NCBI RefSeq assembly: GCF_000023465.1
Contig: NC_014041.1
Location: 2,982,001 to 3,046,000 of the forward strand
Source: Zunongwangia profunda SM-A87
GTDB lineage: Bacteria; Bacteroidota; Bacteroidia; Flavobacteriales; Flavobacteriaceae
Reading direction: 5' to 3'
DNA length: 64,000 nucleotides
Part shown: positions 18,870 to 32,103 of the stretch, piece after piece
Position numbering within the stretch: position 1 is the first letter of the stretch
Layout of the letters: each line of letters starts with the position of its first letter
Notes under the pieces: model-generated
Told to the model about the DNA's origin: nothing
The model's input: only the letters and a program-made list of their open reading frames with translations
The model's database searches: none
Made by a program: the position numbers and the translations under genes

Positions 18870-19817
18870 TTAATCCAGCTTTTCCAAAATTCGTTTTAAA
18901 ACTGCTTGTGCGGCATAAGTTCTATTATTTGCCTGATGAATTACAGCTGAATTTTCACTATCCAAAACCTCGTCTGAAATTACCACATTTCGTCTAACTG
19001 GCAAACAATGCATCACTTTAGCATCGTTGGTAAGCGCTAATTTCTCTTTAGAAAATGTCCAATTTGAATCGGTAGATAATACTTCACCGTACTTCTCATA
19101 ACTACTCCAATTCTTGACATATACAAAATCGGCATCTTTTAAGGCCTCATCCTGATTATGATATACTTTGGTATCATTTAAAACCCGGTTGCTTAGATCG
19201 TAACCCTCAGGGTTTGCTACACAAAAATCAACGTCCATTTTCTGCATCATTTCAGCAAAAGAATTAGGTACCGATTGTGGCAAAGCTTTGGGATGTGGAG
19301 CCCAGGTCAATACTACTTTTAGCTTATCTTTCTTCTTTAGTTCGGTGATCGATATCGCGTCTGTCAATGCCTGTAGCGGATGCCCGGTAGAACTTTCTAA
19401 ATTTACCACAGGTACACTTGCATACTTTTTAAACGCATTAATTACCTGCTCTTCTTCATCTTTCACCTTGTCTTTTAACCCAGGAAAAGCACGCACACCA
19501 ATTACATCACAATATTGCGACAATACGGCAGCGGCTTCCTTAATATGTTCTGCTTTATCCGAATTCATAACCGCTCCATCTTCAAATTCCAAGGCCCATC
19601 CATCTGCACCAACATTCATCGTAAGCACTTCCATTCCTAAAAGTCGGCCAGCTTTTTCTGTACTTAAACGCGTACGTAAACTGGAATTAAAAAACAACAA
19701 GCCAAGGGTTTTTCCTTTTCCTAAAGTGGCAGCTGAGTTTTCTTTTTTAAGCTGAATCGCTTCTTGTATTAATTCATCAAGGTTTTCGATATCGTGAACG
19801 CTTGTGTAATGTTTCAT
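18870..19817 (-). CDS. argF': N-acylornithine carbamoyltransferase (acetyl-/succinylornithine type)
   Basis: 315 residues. The carbamoyl-phosphate loop reads FFNSSLRTRLST (about 47-58), the variant seen in Bacteroidota N-acetyl- or N-succinylornithine transcarbamylases rather than STRTR of ordinary ornithine transcarbamylase. HCLPVRRN near 271 is the second signature. It transfers carbamoyl phosphate to N-acylated ornithine, so arginine is made through acylated citrulline. Whether the acyl group is acetyl or succinyl cannot be decided here. It is the last gene of the arg operon, 22 nt after argD; argB, argE and argH do not follow, and repeats begin 1 bp past the stop. Confidence 0.9.
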   Translation of the reverse strand: MKHYTSVHDIENLDELIQEAIQLKKENSAATLGKGKTLGLLFFNSSLRTRLSTEKAGRLLGMEVLTMNVGADGWALEFEDGAVMNSDKAEHIKEAAAVLSQYCDVIGVRAFPGLKDKVKDEEEQVINAFKKYASVPVVNLESSTGHPLQALTDAISITELKKKDKLKVVLTWAPHPKALPQSVPNSFAEMMQKMDVDFCVANPEGYDLSNRVLNDTKVYHNQDEALKDADFVYVKNWSSYEKYGEVLSTDSNWTFSKEKLALTNDAKVMHCLPVRRNVVISDEVLDSENSAVIHQANNRTYAAQAVLKRILEKLD

Positions 19818-19839: not shown

Positions 19840-20976
19840 TTATTTTTGGTTCGCTAAACTGATCTTTAAAGCTTTAAAAAAGGTATCAAAATGTTTCTTT
19901 TCGATATTTAGCGGCGGTAAAATTCTAAGCAGATTCTTGTTGGCGGCAGATCCCGTAAAGATTTGATGCACATACAACATATCTTTTCTAAGACTGGCGA
20001 CTTCAAAATCGAATTCTAAACCAATCATTAATCCGCGTCCTTTAATATTTTTTATCTGCGGAATTTCTTTTGCCTGCTCTTTTACGTAATCGAACATGGC
20101 TGAAGCATTCTGCAGCAATTCTTCTTTTTCAAGAATATTCAATACCGCTAATCCTGCAGCACAAGCCAGATGATTTCCGCCAAAGGTAGTTCCCAACATT
20201 CCATATTTTGGAGCGATATTTTTATCGATCAAAACCCCACCAATTGGGAAACCATTTCCCATTCCTTTCGCTATTGAAATAATATCAGGATGAATATTAT
20301 GCTTCTGAAAAGCGAAAAAGTCACCTGTTCTTCCATAACCAGCCTGAACTTCGTCTGCAATGATCATCGCTCCGTTTTCTTTGGCTAATTTTTCAATTTG
20401 CTGATAGAATTCCGTGGTTGCTTCATCTAAACCTCCAACACCCTGAATCACTTCAAAAATTACTGCAGCCACATCTCCTTTTTGCAATTCTGAGGCTAAA
20501 GTTTCTGCATCATTAAAGGCGATTTTAGTTATTTTATGACCTTTATTAAACGGCGCTTTAATACTTTCATTATCGGTAACGGCTACTACTCCAGAGGTTC
20601 TTCCATGAAACGCATTTTCAAAATAAATTATGCGCTCTTTACCTGTAGCAAAGGAGGCTAACTTTAAAGCATTCTCGTTAGCTTCGGCACCAGAATTACA
20701 TAAAAACAACTGATACTCCTCACAACCCGACAACTTGCCTAATTTTTCGGCCAGTTCGACTTGCAACGGATTTTTAATCGAATTTGAATAAAAACCAAGC
20801 TGACGTACCTGTTTAGAAATTGCATTCACATAAGCAGGATGCGAATGTCCTATAGAAATTACGGCATGCCCGCCGTAAAGATCAAGATATTTTTTACCAT
20901 CCTTATCGAAAACATACGTGCCTTCGCCTTTTACAGGAGTGATATCGAATAATGGATAAACATCAAAAAGCTCCAT
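19840..20976 (-). CDS. argD: Acetylornithine/succinylornithine aminotransferase
   Basis: A 378-residue class III PLP aminotransferase. GGHAVISIGHSHP is near the start, NSGAEANENALK binds the phosphate, FHGRTSG follows, EVIQGVGG and the cofactor Asp in IIADEVQAGYGRTG come next, and the Schiff-base lysine is in ISIAKGMGNGFP. It converts the N-acyl-glutamate semialdehyde to N-acylornithine. It is 2 nt downstream of proC and 22 nt upstream of argF', within the arg operon. Confidence 0.94.
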   Translation of the reverse strand: MELFDVYPLFDITPVKGEGTYVFDKDGKKYLDLYGGHAVISIGHSHPAYVNAISKQVRQLGFYSNSIKNPLQVELAEKLGKLSGCEEYQLFLCNSGAEANENALKLASFATGKERIIYFENAFHGRTSGVVAVTDNESIKAPFNKGHKITKIAFNDAETLASELQKGDVAAVIFEVIQGVGGLDEATTEFYQQIEKLAKENGAMIIADEVQAGYGRTGDFFAFQKHNIHPDIISIAKGMGNGFPIGGVLIDKNIAPKYGMLGTTFGGNHLACAAGLAVLNILEKEELLQNASAMFDYVKEQAKEIPQIKNIKGRGLMIGLEFDFEVASLRKDMLYVHQIFTGSAANKNLLRILPPLNIEKKHFDTFFKALKISLANQK

Positions 20977-20978
20977 AT

Positions 20979-21773
20979 TTATTGTTCTGAAATGTTATTT
21001 ATTTTTTTGAAAGATGCTTGTAAGCCTTTAATTAAAGAAGAACTTAACCCATTGTGTTCCATCTCGTTTAATCCTTCGATAGTGCAACCCTTTGGTGTGG
21101 TTACTTTATCAATTTCTTCCTCGGGATGCTTTCCAGATTCCACCAATAAACTCGCGGCCCCCAAACAGGTATTCATCGCCAGTTGCTGTGCATCCTTGGC
21201 GTCAAAACCAAGTTGTACGGCTCCCTGTGTGGTTGCACGAATTAAGCGCATCCAAAAAGCAATACCACTGGCACAAATTACCGTTGCGGCCTGCATTTTA
21301 TTTTCCTTGATAATGATACTTGTTCCTAAGCGATTAAAAATAGCCTCGGCGATAGCGATACGTTTTTCTCCTTTTTCGTTAGAACACATACATGTCATCG
21401 ATTTTCCAACAGCTATCGCTGTATTAGGCATGGCACGTATAATAAACTGATCTTTACCAACTATGGCTTCAATTCTATCGATTTTGAACCCGGTTATTGT
21501 TGAAATAAGCACATGCTTATCAGTAAGCAAATCTTTTATTTCTTCTAAAATTCGTTCTAATTGCTGAGGCTGTACCGCAAAAATCAGAATATCTGAATTT
21601 TTAACTGCTTCCTGATTGTCTGAAGTTACCGTAACCTTAGAGTATTCTTCATAAGATTTAATCGCTTCAGTATTTCTTTTGGTGAGGTAAAGCGTGGTAA
21701 ACGCATTATTTACGATAAGTCCCTTGGCAATAGACTTTCCTAAATTTCCCGCACCGATAATCGCTATTTTCAT
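20979..21773 (-). CDS. proC: Pyrroline-5-carboxylate reductase
   Basis: 264 residues. A Rossmann start MKIAIIGAGNLGKSIAKGL leads into the NADPH domain, then FIIRAMPNTAIAVGKSMT and the C-terminal dimer helices with VTTPKGCTIEGL, the ProC signature. It reduces pyrroline-5-carboxylate to proline. Its position inside the arginine operon, between argC and argD, links proline and arginine synthesis at the glutamate/ornithine node. It could help convert ornithine-derived semialdehyde to proline (inference). Confidence 0.92.
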   Translation of the reverse strand: MKIAIIGAGNLGKSIAKGLIVNNAFTTLYLTKRNTEAIKSYEEYSKVTVTSDNQEAVKNSDILIFAVQPQQLERILEEIKDLLTDKHVLISTITGFKIDRIEAIVGKDQFIIRAMPNTAIAVGKSMTCMCSNEKGEKRIAIAEAIFNRLGTSIIIKENKMQAATVICASGIAFWMRLIRATTQGAVQLGFDAKDAQQLAMNTCLGAASLLVESGKHPEEEIDKVTTPKGCTIEGLNEMEHNGLSSSLIKGLQASFKKINNISEQ

Positions 21774-21797: not shown

Positions 21798-22760
21798 CTA
21801 GAAATAACTAGCTTTAAGATGCAATCCTGAACTTTCCGGTAAACCGAACATTAAATTCATATTCTGTACGGCCTGTCCTGATGCTCCTTTTAATAAATTA
21901 TCGATTACACTGGTGATTAACAATTTATCCCCAAATTTCTCTAATTTCAACAAACATTTATTGGTGTTTACCACTTGTTTTAAATGGATATTTTCTTCAG
22001 TCACAAAGGTGAAAGCAGCATCTTTATATTGCTCTTCATAGATTGCTTTTGCTTCTTCCAGGCTACCGGCGAACTTCGTATAAGCAGTGGCATGAATTCC
22101 GCGAGAGAAATTTCCTCTATTCGGAATAAAGTTTACGGTCATGTCTAATTCAGGTTGCAGCCATTGTAAACTTTGCCCAATTTCATTTAAATGTTGATGC
22201 TCAAAAGTTTTATAGGCTGAAAAGTTGTTATCCCTCCAGGTAAAATGTGTTGTGGCTGAAAGCGAAACTCCGGCACCGGTTGCCCCGGTAACTGCATTTA
22301 CATGCCACTCGCCTTCAACTTTCTTTGCTTTTGCCAGTGGAAGAATCGCAAGGCTTATCGCCGTTGCAAAACACCCCGGGTTTGCGATAAAATTCGCTTT
22401 TTTGATCGCATCTTTTTTAAATTCAGGTAAACCGTAAACAAAATCATGGTTACCATCCATTCTATAATCAGTACTCAGATCTACAATTTTTGTGTTCGCT
22501 GAAAATGTATTTTCTGCTAAAAACTTTATCGAATTCCCATGCCCAAGACATAAAAACACTACATCTACTTCTGTATTGATTTCTCCTGAAAATAATAGAT
22601 CGATTTCTCCAATTAAATCCTGGTGCACTCCTGCAACCGGTGTTCCCGGTCTTGAAGTACTAAATACAAAATCGAGTTCAACATCTGGATGATAGGTTAA
22701 AATTCTAACCAGTTCCCCTGCCGTATATCCTGCTCCGCCGATTATTCCTGCTTTGATCAT
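21798..22760 (-). CDS. argC: N-acetyl-gamma-glutamyl-phosphate reductase
   Basis: 320 residues. The nucleotide fold begins GIIGGAGYTAGELVRIL, and the catalytic Cys lies in NPGCFATA, the ArgC active site. A C-terminal domain with GASGQAVQNMNLMFG is typical. It reduces N-acylglutamyl phosphate with NADPH. It is 14 nt after argG and 24 nt before proC. The kinase (argB) that makes its substrate is not in this window. Confidence 0.94.
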   Translation of the reverse strand: MIKAGIIGGAGYTAGELVRILTYHPDVELDFVFSTSRPGTPVAGVHQDLIGEIDLLFSGEINTEVDVVFLCLGHGNSIKFLAENTFSANTKIVDLSTDYRMDGNHDFVYGLPEFKKDAIKKANFIANPGCFATAISLAILPLAKAKKVEGEWHVNAVTGATGAGVSLSATTHFTWRDNNFSAYKTFEHQHLNEIGQSLQWLQPELDMTVNFIPNRGNFSRGIHATAYTKFAGSLEEAKAIYEEQYKDAAFTFVTEENIHLKQVVNTNKCLLKLEKFGDKLLITSVIDNLLKGASGQAVQNMNLMFGLPESSGLHLKASYF

Positions 22761-22774
22761 GATATCCTTAATAT

Positions 22775-23956
22775 TTAGTTATTTTCTACCGACTGGTATA
22801 TCTTACCGGCATTGGATAGAATTTTAATAAATCCTTTAGCATCATTTGCGGTCCAAGCTTTATTTTCTTCTCCATAATTTCCAAAATTGCTATTCATCAG
22901 ATCGTAAGCTGAAGAAATTCCGTCTAAAACAAATCGGTACGGATGTAGGCTAACAAACACTTTACCGGTTACCCTTTCCTGAGAACTTTGCAATAAAGCT
23001 TCAAAATCACGCATTACAGGATCTAAATACTGACCTTCATGTAAATGTGTCCCATACCAGTTCGCTACATAATCTTTATGTTGTAACTGCCATTTACTAA
23101 GCGTATGTTTTTCTAACAAATGATGTGATTTTATAATAATGCTTGCAGCAGCAGCTTCAAAACCTACCCTACCTTTAATCCCGATGATGGTATCTCCAAC
23201 GTGGATATCCCGACCAATCGCATATTTTTTAGCGATTTCTTCAAGAATCTGGATATTATTTTCAGGAGAATTCTCTTTATCATTAATAGCGGTAAGCTCT
23301 CCTTTGGTAAAACTTAAGCTAATTTTACCTATCTCTTTTTCTGAAAGTTGGGATGGAAATGCCGATTCTGGTAATGGCTCGTTAGAAGTTAAAGTTTCGG
23401 CTCCTCCTACACTGGTGCCCCAAAGTCCTTTATTCACTGAATATTTAGATTTCTCCCAGTTCATTTCTACTCCGTTTTCCTTTAGGTAATCAATTTCTTC
23501 CTGTCGGCTTAACTGTTTATCACGAATCGGAGTAATAATTTCAATTTCAGGAGCAATAATCTGGAAGATCATATCGAATCTAACCTGGTCGTTACCTGCA
23601 CCGGTACTACCATGAGCGATATATTTTGCACCAATTTCTTTGGCGTAATTTATAATCTCAATAGCCTGTACGATACGTTCTGCACTTACAGAAAGCGGAT
23701 AGGTGTTATTTTTTAAAACATTACCAAAAATAAGATACTTCACTACCTTAGTATAAAATGAAGAAACCGCATCGATATTTTTATAGGTGGTTGCTCCTAT
23801 TTTCTTGGCATTGTCTCCTATTTTTTGAACTTCTTCTTTAGAGAATCCTCCGGTATTCACGCTTACTGCATGCACTTCGAAACCTTCATTAGACAATGAT
23901 TTTGCACAATATGAAGTATCTAATCCGCCGCTGTAGGCAATAACTACTTTTTTCAT
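22775..23956 (-). CDS. argG: Argininosuccinate synthase
   Basis: 393 residues. The ATP pyrophosphatase P-loop SGGLDTS is at 9-15. STGAGNDQVRF and the substrate region WGTSVGG follow. It joins citrulline and aspartate with ATP to argininosuccinate. It stands second in the operon, 15 nt after the GNAT gene, as in other Bacteroidota arg operons. Confidence 0.95.
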   Translation of the reverse strand: MKKVVIAYSGGLDTSYCAKSLSNEGFEVHAVSVNTGGFSKEEVQKIGDNAKKIGATTYKNIDAVSSFYTKVVKYLIFGNVLKNNTYPLSVSAERIVQAIEIINYAKEIGAKYIAHGSTGAGNDQVRFDMIFQIIAPEIEIITPIRDKQLSRQEEIDYLKENGVEMNWEKSKYSVNKGLWGTSVGGAETLTSNEPLPESAFPSQLSEKEIGKISLSFTKGELTAINDKENSPENNIQILEEIAKKYAIGRDIHVGDTIIGIKGRVGFEAAAASIIIKSHHLLEKHTLSKWQLQHKDYVANWYGTHLHEGQYLDPVMRDFEALLQSSQERVTGKVFVSLHPYRFVLDGISSAYDLMNSNFGNYGEENKAWTANDAKGFIKILSNAGKIYQSVENN

Positions 23957-23971
23957 TTTTATTGGTAAGTT

Positions 23972-24601
23972 TTAATCTAGGTTATTTTTTTCCTTTTTAT
24001 AGAAAAGGCTTTGTTTTATATTTTTTAATCGGGTAAAAGTTTTGTCATTCAGCTCATGCTTTTTTCTATCCTTTTTCTTTTTTTCAGGATCGTAAAGCAT
24101 TCCTGTACACAAACACATTTTACGTTCTGTACGGGTTAGAATATCGTAGTTTTTACAGGTTTGGCAACCTTTCCAAAAAGCTTCATCATCGGTAAGTTCA
24201 GAAAAAGTAACGGGCTGGTAACCTAGCTCGTAATTTATTTTCATTACGGCTAAGCCTGTAGTAATCCCAAAAATCTTTGCGTCTGGATATCTTTTTCTGG
24301 AATAATCGAAAACTGCTTTTTTAATATCTTTTGCCAGCCCCTGATTTCTGTAATCGGGATGTACAATTAATCCTGAATTGGCCACATATTTTTCATGACT
24401 CCAGGTTTCGATATAACAAAAACCGGCAAATTTATCACCATCCAGCGCTATAATGGCATTACCGTTCTCCATTTTGGTAATTACGTATTCTGGTGTACGG
24501 CGCGCTATACCCGTACCACGAATTTTGGCAGATTCTTCTATAGTTGTACAAATAACCTCAGCAAATTTTGCATGAGATTTATTAGCAATGACAATCTTCA
24601 T
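23972..24601 (-). CDS. GNAT-family acyltransferase, probable first enzyme of arginine synthesis
   Basis: 209 residues. The GNAT fold spans about 1-145 with the acyl-CoA loop VHPDYRNQGLAKD (motif A). The C-terminal extension holds a cysteine cluster CQTCKNY ... CLCTGML (CxxC and CxC), possibly a metal site, and a basic tail. It leads the arg operon, where an N-acylglutamate synthase is needed and no other is seen. I infer N-acetyl- or N-succinylglutamate synthase activity, as proposed for Bacteroidota. It is preceded by an Arg-rich leader frame. Confidence 0.75.
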   Translation of the reverse strand: MKIVIANKSHAKFAEVICTTIEESAKIRGTGIARRTPEYVITKMENGNAIIALDGDKFAGFCYIETWSHEKYVANSGLIVHPDYRNQGLAKDIKKAVFDYSRKRYPDAKIFGITTGLAVMKINYELGYQPVTFSELTDDEAFWKGCQTCKNYDILTRTERKMCLCTGMLYDPEKKKKDRKKHELNDKTFTRLKNIKQSLFYKKEKNNLD

Positions 24602-24692
24602 TTGCTAAACGATTATTAGGATTGAAAAAAATAAATTGAAAGTTCTAACCGAAAGGGGAACCGGACTCACCTAAGTTCCATAAAATTAAACA

Positions 24693-24706
24693 CGCACTTA
24701 CGTGCG
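24693..24706 (-). terminator. Hairpin overlapping the stop codon of the Arg leader (candidate attenuator element)
   Basis: On the minus strand CGCAC-GTAA-GTGCG forms a stem whose loop carries the TAA stop of the leader frame; TGTTTAATTTTAT follows, a weak T-rich tail. A ribosome finishing the leader would melt it, one stalled at the Arg codons 7-20 nt upstream would not. Terminator strength is uncertain. Confidence 0.4.
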
Positions 24707-24838
24707 GGGGTTACGACGGCGGCGTACGGGAACAAGTACAACAGCAGGAGTTGATGGCCTGTTAAAAAGAGCGATCCAATCCTGTAAACCTTGTATAAGG
24801 CTTTCTAATATTTGTTGTATGTTCAGTGATTTTTTCAA
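24698..24838 (-). CDS. Arginine-rich leader peptide upstream of the arg operon
   Basis: A 46-codon frame on the minus strand starting at TTG (24838), reading KKSLNIQQIL and ending VPVRRRRNPRT. Four consecutive Arg codons (CGC CGC CGT CGT, 24713-24724) and a fifth two codons later come just before the stop, about 100 nt before the GNAT ATG. This is the architecture of a ribosome-stalling attenuator that senses charged tRNA-Arg. No ATG is in frame, so TTG is the assumed start. The N-terminal part forms an amphipathic helix, longer than most leaders, so an independent small protein is a possible alternative. Confidence 0.6.
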   Translation of the reverse strand: MKKSLNIQQILESLIQGLQDWIALFNRPSTPAVVLVPVRRRRNPRT

Positions 24839-24948
24839 AATAAAAGTTTCAAATAATATTAATAAGAAGATTATATAAGCATTACCTTATGCAGCGCACA
24901 GGGTATCGATTATTAGTTAATATTATTTGACTTTGTGTATTCACAATG

Positions 24949-24978
24949 TAAATATAGATTTTATAAACGGATTTACAA
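24949..24978 (-). promoter_or_regulatory. Candidate promoter of the arg operon
   Basis: On the minus strand TTG (24976-24978) is followed, with a 19-nt spacer, by TATATTTA (24949-24956), one mismatch from TAnnTTTG. It is upstream of the Arg leader frame and within the 389-bp gap after ilvA. The rest of that gap shows no gene. Confidence 0.4.
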
Positions 24979-24990
24979 AGACTTTTTTGA

Positions 24991-26262
24991 TCAAATAATG
25001 AATTGAAATAAATCTGGCGTATCATTAAGGTATCTACCATAAAAATTGCGCTCTTTCATCCTGTTTATCAGGGGCTCAAAGTCAGATTTATCTTTAAGTT
25101 CTATCCCTACCACTGCAGGACCGTTTTCCCTTTCGTGCTTTTTGGAATATTCAAAATGGGTAATATCGTCTGTAGGGCCTAATACTTTATCCAAAAATTC
25201 CCGCAAAGCACCGGCACGTTGTGGAAATGTAACTACAAAATAATGTTTTAAACCAGCATATAGTAGTGCCCGTTCTTTGATTTCTGCAGTACGGGTAATA
25301 TCGTTATTACTCCCGCTTACAATACAAACTACATTTTTGCCCTTTATTTCCTCAGCAAAAAAATCTAAAACCGAAATAGACATAGCCCCGGCAGGTTCTA
25401 CCACAATAGCGTCCTGATTGTAAAGATCCAGAATAGTCTGGCAAATTTTACCTTCAGGAATCGTGACCATTTGATCTAAATTTTGTTTACAAATTTCAAA
25501 ATTCCGACTGCCTACTTTTTGTACTGCTGCTCCATCTACAAAACGTTCGATCTGCTCTAGCTCTACCAGCTTTCCTTCTTTGAGGGAAGCCGACATTGAT
25601 GGAGCTCCTTTCGGCTCTACACCAATAATCTTTGTTTTTGGAGATAATTCTTTAAAAACCGAAGAAACTCCGGCCAATAATCCTCCGCCTCCAAGAGGTG
25701 CAAATACATAATCTATAGGTTCCCTGGCTTGCTCTAAAATCTCTAGACCAATAGTTGCCTGGCCTTCAATCACCTTTTCATCATCAAAAGGATGGATAAA
25801 AACAAGATCCTCCTCACCTGCCCTAATCATGGCGCTTTTAAAGGAATCATCAAAAGTATCCCCTTCTAAAGCAACTTCTACCCATTCACCCCCAAACATT
25901 TTAGTTTGCGCTACTTTTTGACTGGGTGTGGTGCTTGGCATATAAATCACACCTTTGGCTTTTAGTTTGTTGCAGGCAAAAGCCACCCCTTGCGCATGGT
26001 TACCCGCACTGGCACAAATCACCCCTTTCTCTAGCTGGTCTTTGGGCAAACTGGAAATCTTATTGTACGCTCCACGAATTTTATAAGAACGTACTTGTTG
26101 TAAATCTTCCCTTTTAAGCATAATATTTGCTCCAAATCGATTGCTGTACGTAAACGATTCAGCTAAAGGCGTGTATACAACAACTTTAGATATTCTTTCA
26201 GAGGCCTGTTTAACAGCTTCTATACTCGGTTTATATATTTGTGCCAATGCAGTATCCATCAA
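24991..26262 (-). CDS. ilvA: Threonine ammonia-lyase (threonine deaminase)
   Basis: 423 residues. The PLP lysine is in KREDLQQVRSYKIRGA, the phosphate loop GGGGLLAG is near 190, and SAGNHAQG is at about 88. The C-terminal regulatory domain is short and single (ACT-like, about 335-420, FVVTFPQRAGALREFL), the form sensitive to isoleucine in many bacteria. It makes 2-oxobutanoate for isoleucine. The gene starts directly after the ilvC stop and ends the ilv operon. Confidence 0.94.
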   Translation of the reverse strand: MMDTALAQIYKPSIEAVKQASERISKVVVYTPLAESFTYSNRFGANIMLKREDLQQVRSYKIRGAYNKISSLPKDQLEKGVICASAGNHAQGVAFACNKLKAKGVIYMPSTTPSQKVAQTKMFGGEWVEVALEGDTFDDSFKSAMIRAGEEDLVFIHPFDDEKVIEGQATIGLEILEQAREPIDYVFAPLGGGGLLAGVSSVFKELSPKTKIIGVEPKGAPSMSASLKEGKLVELEQIERFVDGAAVQKVGSRNFEICKQNLDQMVTIPEGKICQTILDLYNQDAIVVEPAGAMSISVLDFFAEEIKGKNVVCIVSGSNNDITRTAEIKERALLYAGLKHYFVVTFPQRAGALREFLDKVLGPTDDITHFEYSKKHERENGPAVVGIELKDKSDFEPLINRMKERNFYGRYLNDTPDLFQFII

Positions 26263-31977: not shown

Positions 31978-32004
31978 AAAAAAAGCCATCCCTAAAGATG
32001 GCTT
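31978..32004 (-). terminator. Attenuator terminator upstream of ilvD
   Basis: On the minus strand AAGCCATC and GATGGCTT pair around a TTTAGG loop and are followed by seven T. It lies 27 nt after the stop of an Ile-rich leader frame and far upstream of ilvD, so it is an internal leader terminator rather than the end of a gene. The remaining 285 bp to ilvD show nothing recognisable. Confidence 0.75.
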
Positions 32005-32031
32005 ATACGTTATATATCATACATATCCTCT

Positions 32032-32103
32032 CTAGGGCCAGGTTTTCCAAATGAAAATGACCTTAATAATTGAAGAGATAATGTATTGTTTTCCTAAATT
32101 CAT
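32032..32103 (-). CDS. Isoleucine-rich leader peptide of the ilv operon
   Basis: 23 codons, ATG to TAG, with the stretch YIISSIIKVIFIW holding six Ile and one Val, plus one Leu near the start. Placed between a promoter-like motif and a rho-independent terminator, and ahead of five genes making Ile and Val, it fits classical attenuation sensing tRNA-Ile/Val charging. Confidence 0.68.
   Translation of the reverse strand: MNLGKQYIISSIIKVIFIWKTWP

Follow-up and report, generated by a model that had tools for sequence, protein, structure and literature searches.

Arginine genes are classically under ArgR control, and the question raised by the arginine operon of Zunongwangia profunda SM-A87 is what may take the place of this regulator. 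The operon lies on the minus strand of the window, the 64,000-nucleotide stretch of DNA that was analysed, in a genome of 5,128,187 bases in one contig. Its first gene encodes a GNAT-type N-acetyltransferase of 209 aa (23972..24601; a weak NCBIfam match, below the model cut-off) and is followed by argG for argininosuccinate synthase (22775..23956), argC (21798-22760), proC (20979-21773), argD (19840-20976) and a carbamoyltransferase-like ORF named by eye (18870-19817). The NCBIfam matches of argC and proC lie above the curated cut-offs, and those of argG and argD are strong but below them. A search for the C-terminal domain of ArgR (PF02863) was negative in all of 120 Flavobacteriaceae genomes, this one included, and a control search with the same domain was positive in 8 of 14 genomes, one of them a Bacteroides. 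That the domain was not found in the family genomes sampled is part of what gives leader control its interest. Comparison of the upstream regions makes it likely, in our judgement, that the 5' region of the GNAT-argG-argC-proC-argD operon provides tRNA-Arg-sensing leader-peptide control. The arrangement is shared with many relatives and probably enables ribosomes to gauge how much arginine is available and so adjust the output of the pathway.

The original prediction was of a 46-codon frame with a TTG start that ends in VPVRRRRNPRT, and this frame, here called leader 2, is present at 24698..24838 (minus) as the program-listed ORF MKKSLNIQQILESLIQGLQDWIALFNRPSTPAVVLVPVRRRRNPRT. Its stop codon, TAA at 24698-24700, lies inside a hairpin loop about 100 nt before the first operon gene, as had been described, and the GNAT start codon at 24601 follows 97 nt on. 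Two features had been missed: an upstream Arg-containing frame, leader 1 (24882..24944, minus), and a conserved AGGUGNGUCC hairpin, H2 (24657..24679, minus). Leader 2 carries four tandem Arg codons, CGC CGC CGT CGT (24713..24724, minus). There are, however, three short ORFs (10-80 aa) with an RRRR run in the window, and 60 first-order shuffles gave a mean of 0.72 (sd 0.93, maximum 3), so that the run alone is not significant and the window by itself cannot decide. The significance of leader 2 lies in the comparison with relatives. Another of the three ORFs, at 24702-24878 on the plus strand, overlaps leader 2 in antisense with an RRRR run of its own, and is taken as accidental.

Leader 2 was found in all five congeners searched, with 87-91% identity in four of them and 41% in the fifth (G005). 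The Arg run reads CGC CGY CGY CGY in all six aligned Zunongwangia sequences, including the window; the exchanges are synonymous and Arg is kept throughout. The hydrophobic helix of leader 2 had been called conserved-looking in the original prediction. It is the same in the window and four of the five congeners, is rewritten in G005 and was not seen in the other genera read, and its conservation is genus-deep only. Outside the genus, only the Arg-rich end of leader 2 is recognisable. The codon-level comparison across Flavobacteriaceae that had been proposed nonetheless favours the frame, since the Arg-rich frame and its codons are kept in most of the family sampled.

The extent of this conservation can be judged from 106 of the 108 distinct loci, which the leader-2 counts cover. 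Openness over 14 codons was a condition for including a locus, and the frame richest in Arg was the one taken; with this selection, the leader-2 frame is stop-free over 24 codons at 104 of the 106 loci versus 31 and 30 for the other two frames, and over 35 codons at 84 loci versus 4 and 9. Of the 62 two-leader loci, 56 have an in-frame start codon 24-36 codons before the stop (other frames, 5 and 6), as do 40 of the 44 loci without leader 1 (other frames, 16 and 25). A start exactly 30 or 31 codons from the stop is found in 42 of the 62 two-leader loci, compared with 6 of the 44 others. The last 14 codons contain a mean of 4.3 Arg codons (106 loci). A rule of at least three Arg in the last 14 codons of the frame is satisfied by all 78 motif loci versus 8.7% of shuffled upstream sequences, and is a permissive one, taking the best of three frames. 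Substitutions in leader 2 fall on the three codon positions almost equally (443/434/449 in 73 pairs), with no third-position bias; the open frame and the Arg codons being kept, it is the frame that matters rather than the peptide. A hairpin inside leader 2, H0 (about -57 to -37 from the stop), recurs in position in two-leader loci. A minority of loci, 6 of 44 and 9 of 62, lie above the 95th percentile of shuffles, and H0 was rejected as evidence.

The choice of arginine codons in the leaders is strongly skewed. CGU and CGC make up 229 of the 264 Arg codons (87%) at codons -14 to -4 of leader 2, 192 of 196 (98%) in its last three codons and 247 of 311 (79%) in leader 1. In GNAT genes or gene parts at the same loci the share is 152 of 613 (25%), and in the ORFs of the window, where AGA leads, it is 185 of 592 (31%). 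Both codons are read by tRNA-Arg with the anticodon ACG/ICG. A conserved Arg run with synonymous changes and a preference for CGU and CGC are what one expects if charged tRNA-Arg is sensed. The comparison thus finds a short leader frame before a biosynthetic operon, as judged from the conservation of frame and start codon, and finds it enriched in codons for the end product, as judged from the Arg count and the CGU/CGC bias; both are features of attenuators.

The same counts bear on the idea that the Arg-rich frames are by-products of a G+C-rich structured RNA with CGN-rich hairpins and have no part in regulatory translation. The last codons of leader 2 do lie within the stop hairpin, which could partly force the CGC among them, and short ORFs with RRRR are not rare by chance. 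Such a by-product, however, would hardly keep a frame open far upstream of the hairpin with a start codon at a fixed place, retain Arg through synonymous changes in the run, or show the CGU/CGC bias upstream of the last three codons (the 229 of 264 above); and another class has Arg leaders of its own, with other hairpins, ahead of the same gene. We regard this idea as barely credible.

The stop hairpin, Hstop (CGCAC-GTAA-GTGCG; 24693..24706, minus), has 5 bp, and the stop TAA forms the last three bases of its loop. One pair is exchanged among relatives, being C-G in 94 and A-U in 6 of 100. At 92 of the 106 leader-2 loci the last three residues are RRP, directly before the stop, and this could point to an arrest peptide, whose nascent chain would respond to arginine or another metabolite and halt the ribosome on the stop codon. 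TnaC and the fungal arginine attenuator peptide are precedents for such peptides. However, where the hairpin has an A-U in place of the C-G pair the Pro changes to Thr, and at 11 of 106 loci (a few of them maybe wrong frames) the stop was called at a more downstream position, so that the hairpin seems to be kept rather than the peptide end. Since, in addition, only the Arg-rich end of leader 2 is conserved and substitutions lack a third-position bias, an arrest peptide is very unlikely, and sensing through the Arg codons remains the preferred reading. In the window, Hstop fits a loose terminator pattern. The U-rich stretch is displaced across loci and there is no U-tract 3' of H2, so there is no classical terminator after leader 2.

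H2 lies 18 nt beyond the leader-2 stop in the window. After the leader stop its layout is stem-bulge(A)-GG-UGNGU-CC-stem, with a covarying stem of about 6 bp, a bulge that ends in A, and a tip, A-GGUGNGUCC, that is near-invariant among relatives (AGGTGAGTCC at 24663..24672, minus). Its position varies little: the GGUG is 56-74 nt ahead of the GNAT gene in 96 of 108 loci (L094 yielded no gene start, and the starts used for L060 and L074 are those of doubtful genes), and the distance from the leader-2 stop to GGUG is -25 to -31 nt in 95 of 106. The stem averages 6.4 bp, versus 2.6 bp with shuffled flanks (109 loci), and there are 54 distinct pairs of flanks. Columns -3/+10 are paired in 94% of 102 loci, with four main pair types and a z of 15.6; columns -8/-4, which are incapable of forming a helix, still score 13.4, so that covariation scores are inflated by relatedness. 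In a model-fitted alignment, the number of pair types was 16 versus 15.9 in shuffles, and the paired cells and the covariation score were above shuffles. A tree-based covariation sign test had too few independent pairs for a decision.

The 109 regions examined in detail were selected in two steps, first with a model, R1, and next for the presence of the pattern GGTGNGTCC, which 109 of 113 loci contain, and the invariance of the tip among them is thus partly by construction. The four loci without the pattern are L092, L093, L136 and L161, and in the last two the inner H2 pair is A-U, not G-C. A second set, chosen by the GNAT protein and not by the motif, is made up of the best 80 of 541 confirmed relatives and includes Zunongwangia atlantica, pacifica and mangrovi (L200-L202). 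In 77 of these best 80, H2 is conserved and the frame has at least three Arg in its last 14 codons. The three misses comprise a motif on an imperfect stem (L273), a stem without the tip (L205) and a locus with no motif (L275). At L205, in Salinimicrobium sediminis, the H2 stem is kept about 60 nt ahead of the gene and carries a U-rich loop where the GGUGNGUCC tip would be; provided that the assembly is correct, this is a natural tip-less variant.

H2 is widespread in the family. Among the first relatives, each of the 18 GNAT loci from the same family had it, twice in the form GGTGTGTCC, and none of five GNAT loci from other families of the order did. A covariance model from 15 sequences matched 200 of 299 family genomes at E <= 0.05 and left 99 without a match; 18 of the 200 have E > 0.001 and may be chance, and G015 has no GNAT match. 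In an order-wide sample of 296 genomes, many of them from the same family, the model matched 22 at E <= 0.001, all in that family. Rfam 15 gave no match for the element: the window yielded only two tRNAs at gathering thresholds, and a search of 24590-25060 with E up to 10 gave one chance-level match (E 8.6). The T-box covariance model matched neither the window (gathering thresholds) nor 24590-25060 (E up to 10).

The conservation of H2 raises the possibility that the AGGUGNGUCC hairpin is the real sensor, as a small-molecule aptamer or the site of a regulatory protein, with the Arg-rich frames secondary. The tip outdoes the whole region in conservation while the stem varies, and H2 is retained at loci that have leader 2 only. 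Strong model matches are also single per genome (25 genomes), and 29 of the 30 top-scoring loci of the covariance model are immediately upstream of the GNAT gene, ahead of the arg operon; the 30th, L060, adjoins another ORF, an acetyltransferase by eye. A hairpin acting as sensor would leave unaccounted for, however, the strong selection on the open frame, the start codon and the Arg codons of the leaders. The stop-H2 distance is fixed, so that the two look like one device, and no expression platform is visible 3' of H2, where the RNA contains little G and is rich in A at +22 to +27 and in U thereafter. We therefore think it unlikely that the hairpin itself is the sensor, and prefer to see it as acting together with leader 2.

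Several candidate roles and further copies of H2 were considered and set aside. It was rejected as an intrinsic terminator, there being no U-tract 3' of the hairpin. The AGGUGA-UCC of the tip is complementary to GGAUCACCU of the 16S 3' end; pairing with 16S was dropped as the main idea, because relatives retain an extra G and can have U or C in place of the A. Nor is a pairing between the tip and the 5' arm of the stop hairpin preserved where this arm is CGCAC. The tip may resemble PyrR or phage-coat hairpins. Second matches of R1 in the 25 genomes were weak (E 3.7e-4 or worse), and inspection of five of them (L095-L099) by eye revealed neither an arg leader nor a AGGTGNGTCC hairpin, L097 excepted, whose GGTGAGTCC looks by eye like coding sequence and was not accepted as a further copy. 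The match at L036 sits inside a 207-aa ORF, and the sole other exact AGGTGAGTCC in the Z. profunda genome is inside an ORF that resembles dnaA by eye; neither was retained.

Leader 1 adds a second layer at many loci. In the window it has a GTG start, reads MNTQSQIILTNNRYPVRCIR / VNTQSQIILTNNRYPVRCIR with three Arg codons, and is the counterpart of the KNKIR..RNRRRF leaders of relatives, which have about 23 codons, are of the type MKNLKNKIRCSTPGLPVRNRRRF and begin about 240 nt ahead of H2. An automatic rule called leader 1 at 64 of 108 loci and found it absent at 44; three of the calls (L086, L129 and L156) are likely to be false, being tails of upstream genes at loci where a promoter box precedes leader 2. 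The congener L044, whose leader-1 frame has two Arg, was sorted among the loci without leader 1. In relatives, the opening codons of leader 1 are able to base-pair with a segment some 80 nt further on, which finishes with a U-run shortly before leader 2 begins. In the window this long A/U stem has its 5' arm (24917..24929, minus) inside leader 1 and encloses the rest of that leader; its 3' arm (24850..24862, minus) is followed by CTTTTATTTT, and the start codon of leader 2 is just downstream. A U-run of at least five T follows leader 1 at 54 of 64 loci, compared with 9 of 44 loci without leader 1; the window itself has only TTTTATTTT. The energy of the leader-1 stem averages -15.2 kcal/mol versus -10.9 in mononucleotide shuffles, with 3 of 64 loci beyond the 1% tail. 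These energies are moderate and the statistics modest, and this weighs against a terminator role.

Promoter-like boxes agree with two layouts, one with a single leader and one with two, as far as motif matches can indicate. The motif TAnnTTTG, a -7 consensus of Bacteroidota, immediately precedes leader 2 (positions -131 to -105) at 21 of 44 loci without leader 1 versus 3 of 64 with it, the three being the likely misclassified loci. It immediately precedes leader 1 (positions -266 to -240) at 1 of 44 loci without leader 1 versus 19 of 64 with it. In the window the candidate -7 element, by motif match only, is TATATTTA (24949..24956, minus), one change from TAnnTTTG and just upstream of leader 1.

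A mechanism can be proposed from these features. A transcript from a promoter upstream of 24944 would encode two short Arg-containing frames in series. The early codons of leader 1 would hold the 5' arm of the A/U stem, whose 3' arm carries, in many relatives, a U-run that could be terminator-like; leader 2 would then begin at a weak codon after the stem, its CGU/CGC block running into the stop hairpin. When the Arg-tRNA that reads CGU and CGC is scarce, ribosomes would slow at the Arg codons of the leaders. A slow ribosome on leader 1 would keep the terminator-like stem from closing, and one on leader 2 would keep the stop hairpin open and be held about 20 nt before H2. Stalling on either leader would raise the level of operon mRNA or its translation, and with plentiful arginine the ribosome would run off and expression would drop. 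The comparison of sequences shows the frames, the selection on Arg codons, the hairpins, their position and the absence of the ArgR C-terminal domain; we infer the translation of the leaders, the direction of control, what H2 does, and the step and site at which transcription would end.

The tRNA-Arg attenuation originally proposed stands in part. The conserved Arg frame and the CGU/CGC bias favour sensing; strict attenuation, by a terminator under ribosome control, is less evident for leader 2, which no classical terminator follows, and neither the folds nor a covariation scan of the leader-2 end, with scores inflated by relatedness, revealed a competing terminator/antiterminator helix. Leader-2-only loci have no terminator-like stem, and the model leaves their termination step unexplained. 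These loci, at which no terminator is visible, suggest that the pair of leader 2 and H2 may suffice, and they make H2 the part of greatest interest. It is quite possible, though we would put it at somewhat less than an even chance, that the A-GGUGNGUCC hairpin serves as the output of the leader and represents a kind of RNA element not yet described, its recognition by a factor or small molecule being gated by the leader ribosome. Candidates for recognising it would include RNA polymerase, Rho, a ribosomal or other RNA-binding protein, and a small molecule. If this is true, the element would be a tRNA-Arg switch that needs no intrinsic terminator, a stand-in for ArgR in most sampled Flavobacteriaceae.

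Ribosome-mediated transcription attenuation is known from the trp, his, leu and ilv leaders of enterobacteria. The present arrangement is like the trp/his type in having a short leader with end-product codons directly upstream of the operon and hairpins around the regulatory codons. It differs in the amino acid, arginine, in the two serial leaders of many genomes, in the extra near-invariant AGGUGNGUCC hairpin and in the lack of a standard terminator after leader 2. The case offers a concrete model of two leaders and a sharply defined RNA motif. Searches of open-licence papers listed no report of leader-peptide control of arginine biosynthesis, either in this group or for arg operons.

Related systems have been described. 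In Flavobacterium psychrophilum, of the same family as Zunongwangia, there are 'strong clues' of leader-peptide attenuation before amino-acid operons, with structured 5' elements that lack Rfam hits; pheA and hisG are named, and arginine is not in the section on these attenuators (PMC9723704). The rbfL leader of Staphylococcus aureus uses Arg codons to sense arginine limitation; it differs in that ribosome occlusion blocks translation of a biofilm regulator, in its AGA/AGG codons and in involving no arginine biosynthesis operon (PMC13009471). The uORFC-8-2 cysS leader motif was predicted by comparison to be a ribosome-mediated attenuator whose regulatory codons lie in tandem; it differs in concerning cysteine, in belonging to Alphaproteobacteria and in ending in an intrinsic terminator (PMC8632094).

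Outside the family, Arg leaders stand before the same GNAT gene at all 14 loci (L183-L196) of a family from another class of the phylum. These leaders, for example MQKSLAHRIDRRSVRRIPRRR, are of the MQ...RIPRRR type, lie about 90-180 nt ahead of GNAT and are accompanied by different hairpins. An ORF with an Arg run was found at 22 of 35 loci outside the H2 group; with 17% in shuffles and 12 of 35 in antisense, single cases outside L183-L196 are weak. Ten genomes (L162-L171) of the large genus g146, which may be Flavobacterium, have the GNAT gene with no H2 and no convincing Arg leader. The Arg-run rule fires at one of their ten main loci (L170), weakly and with a TTG start, and the element may have been lost or replaced in this genus. 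Elsewhere in the window, upstream of ilvD at 31978-32103 (minus), a frame reading MNLGKQYIISSIIKVIFIWKTWP is followed by a GCCATC..GATGGC hairpin and a T-run, as seen by eye, and this element is likely to be a branched-chain amino-acid attenuator.
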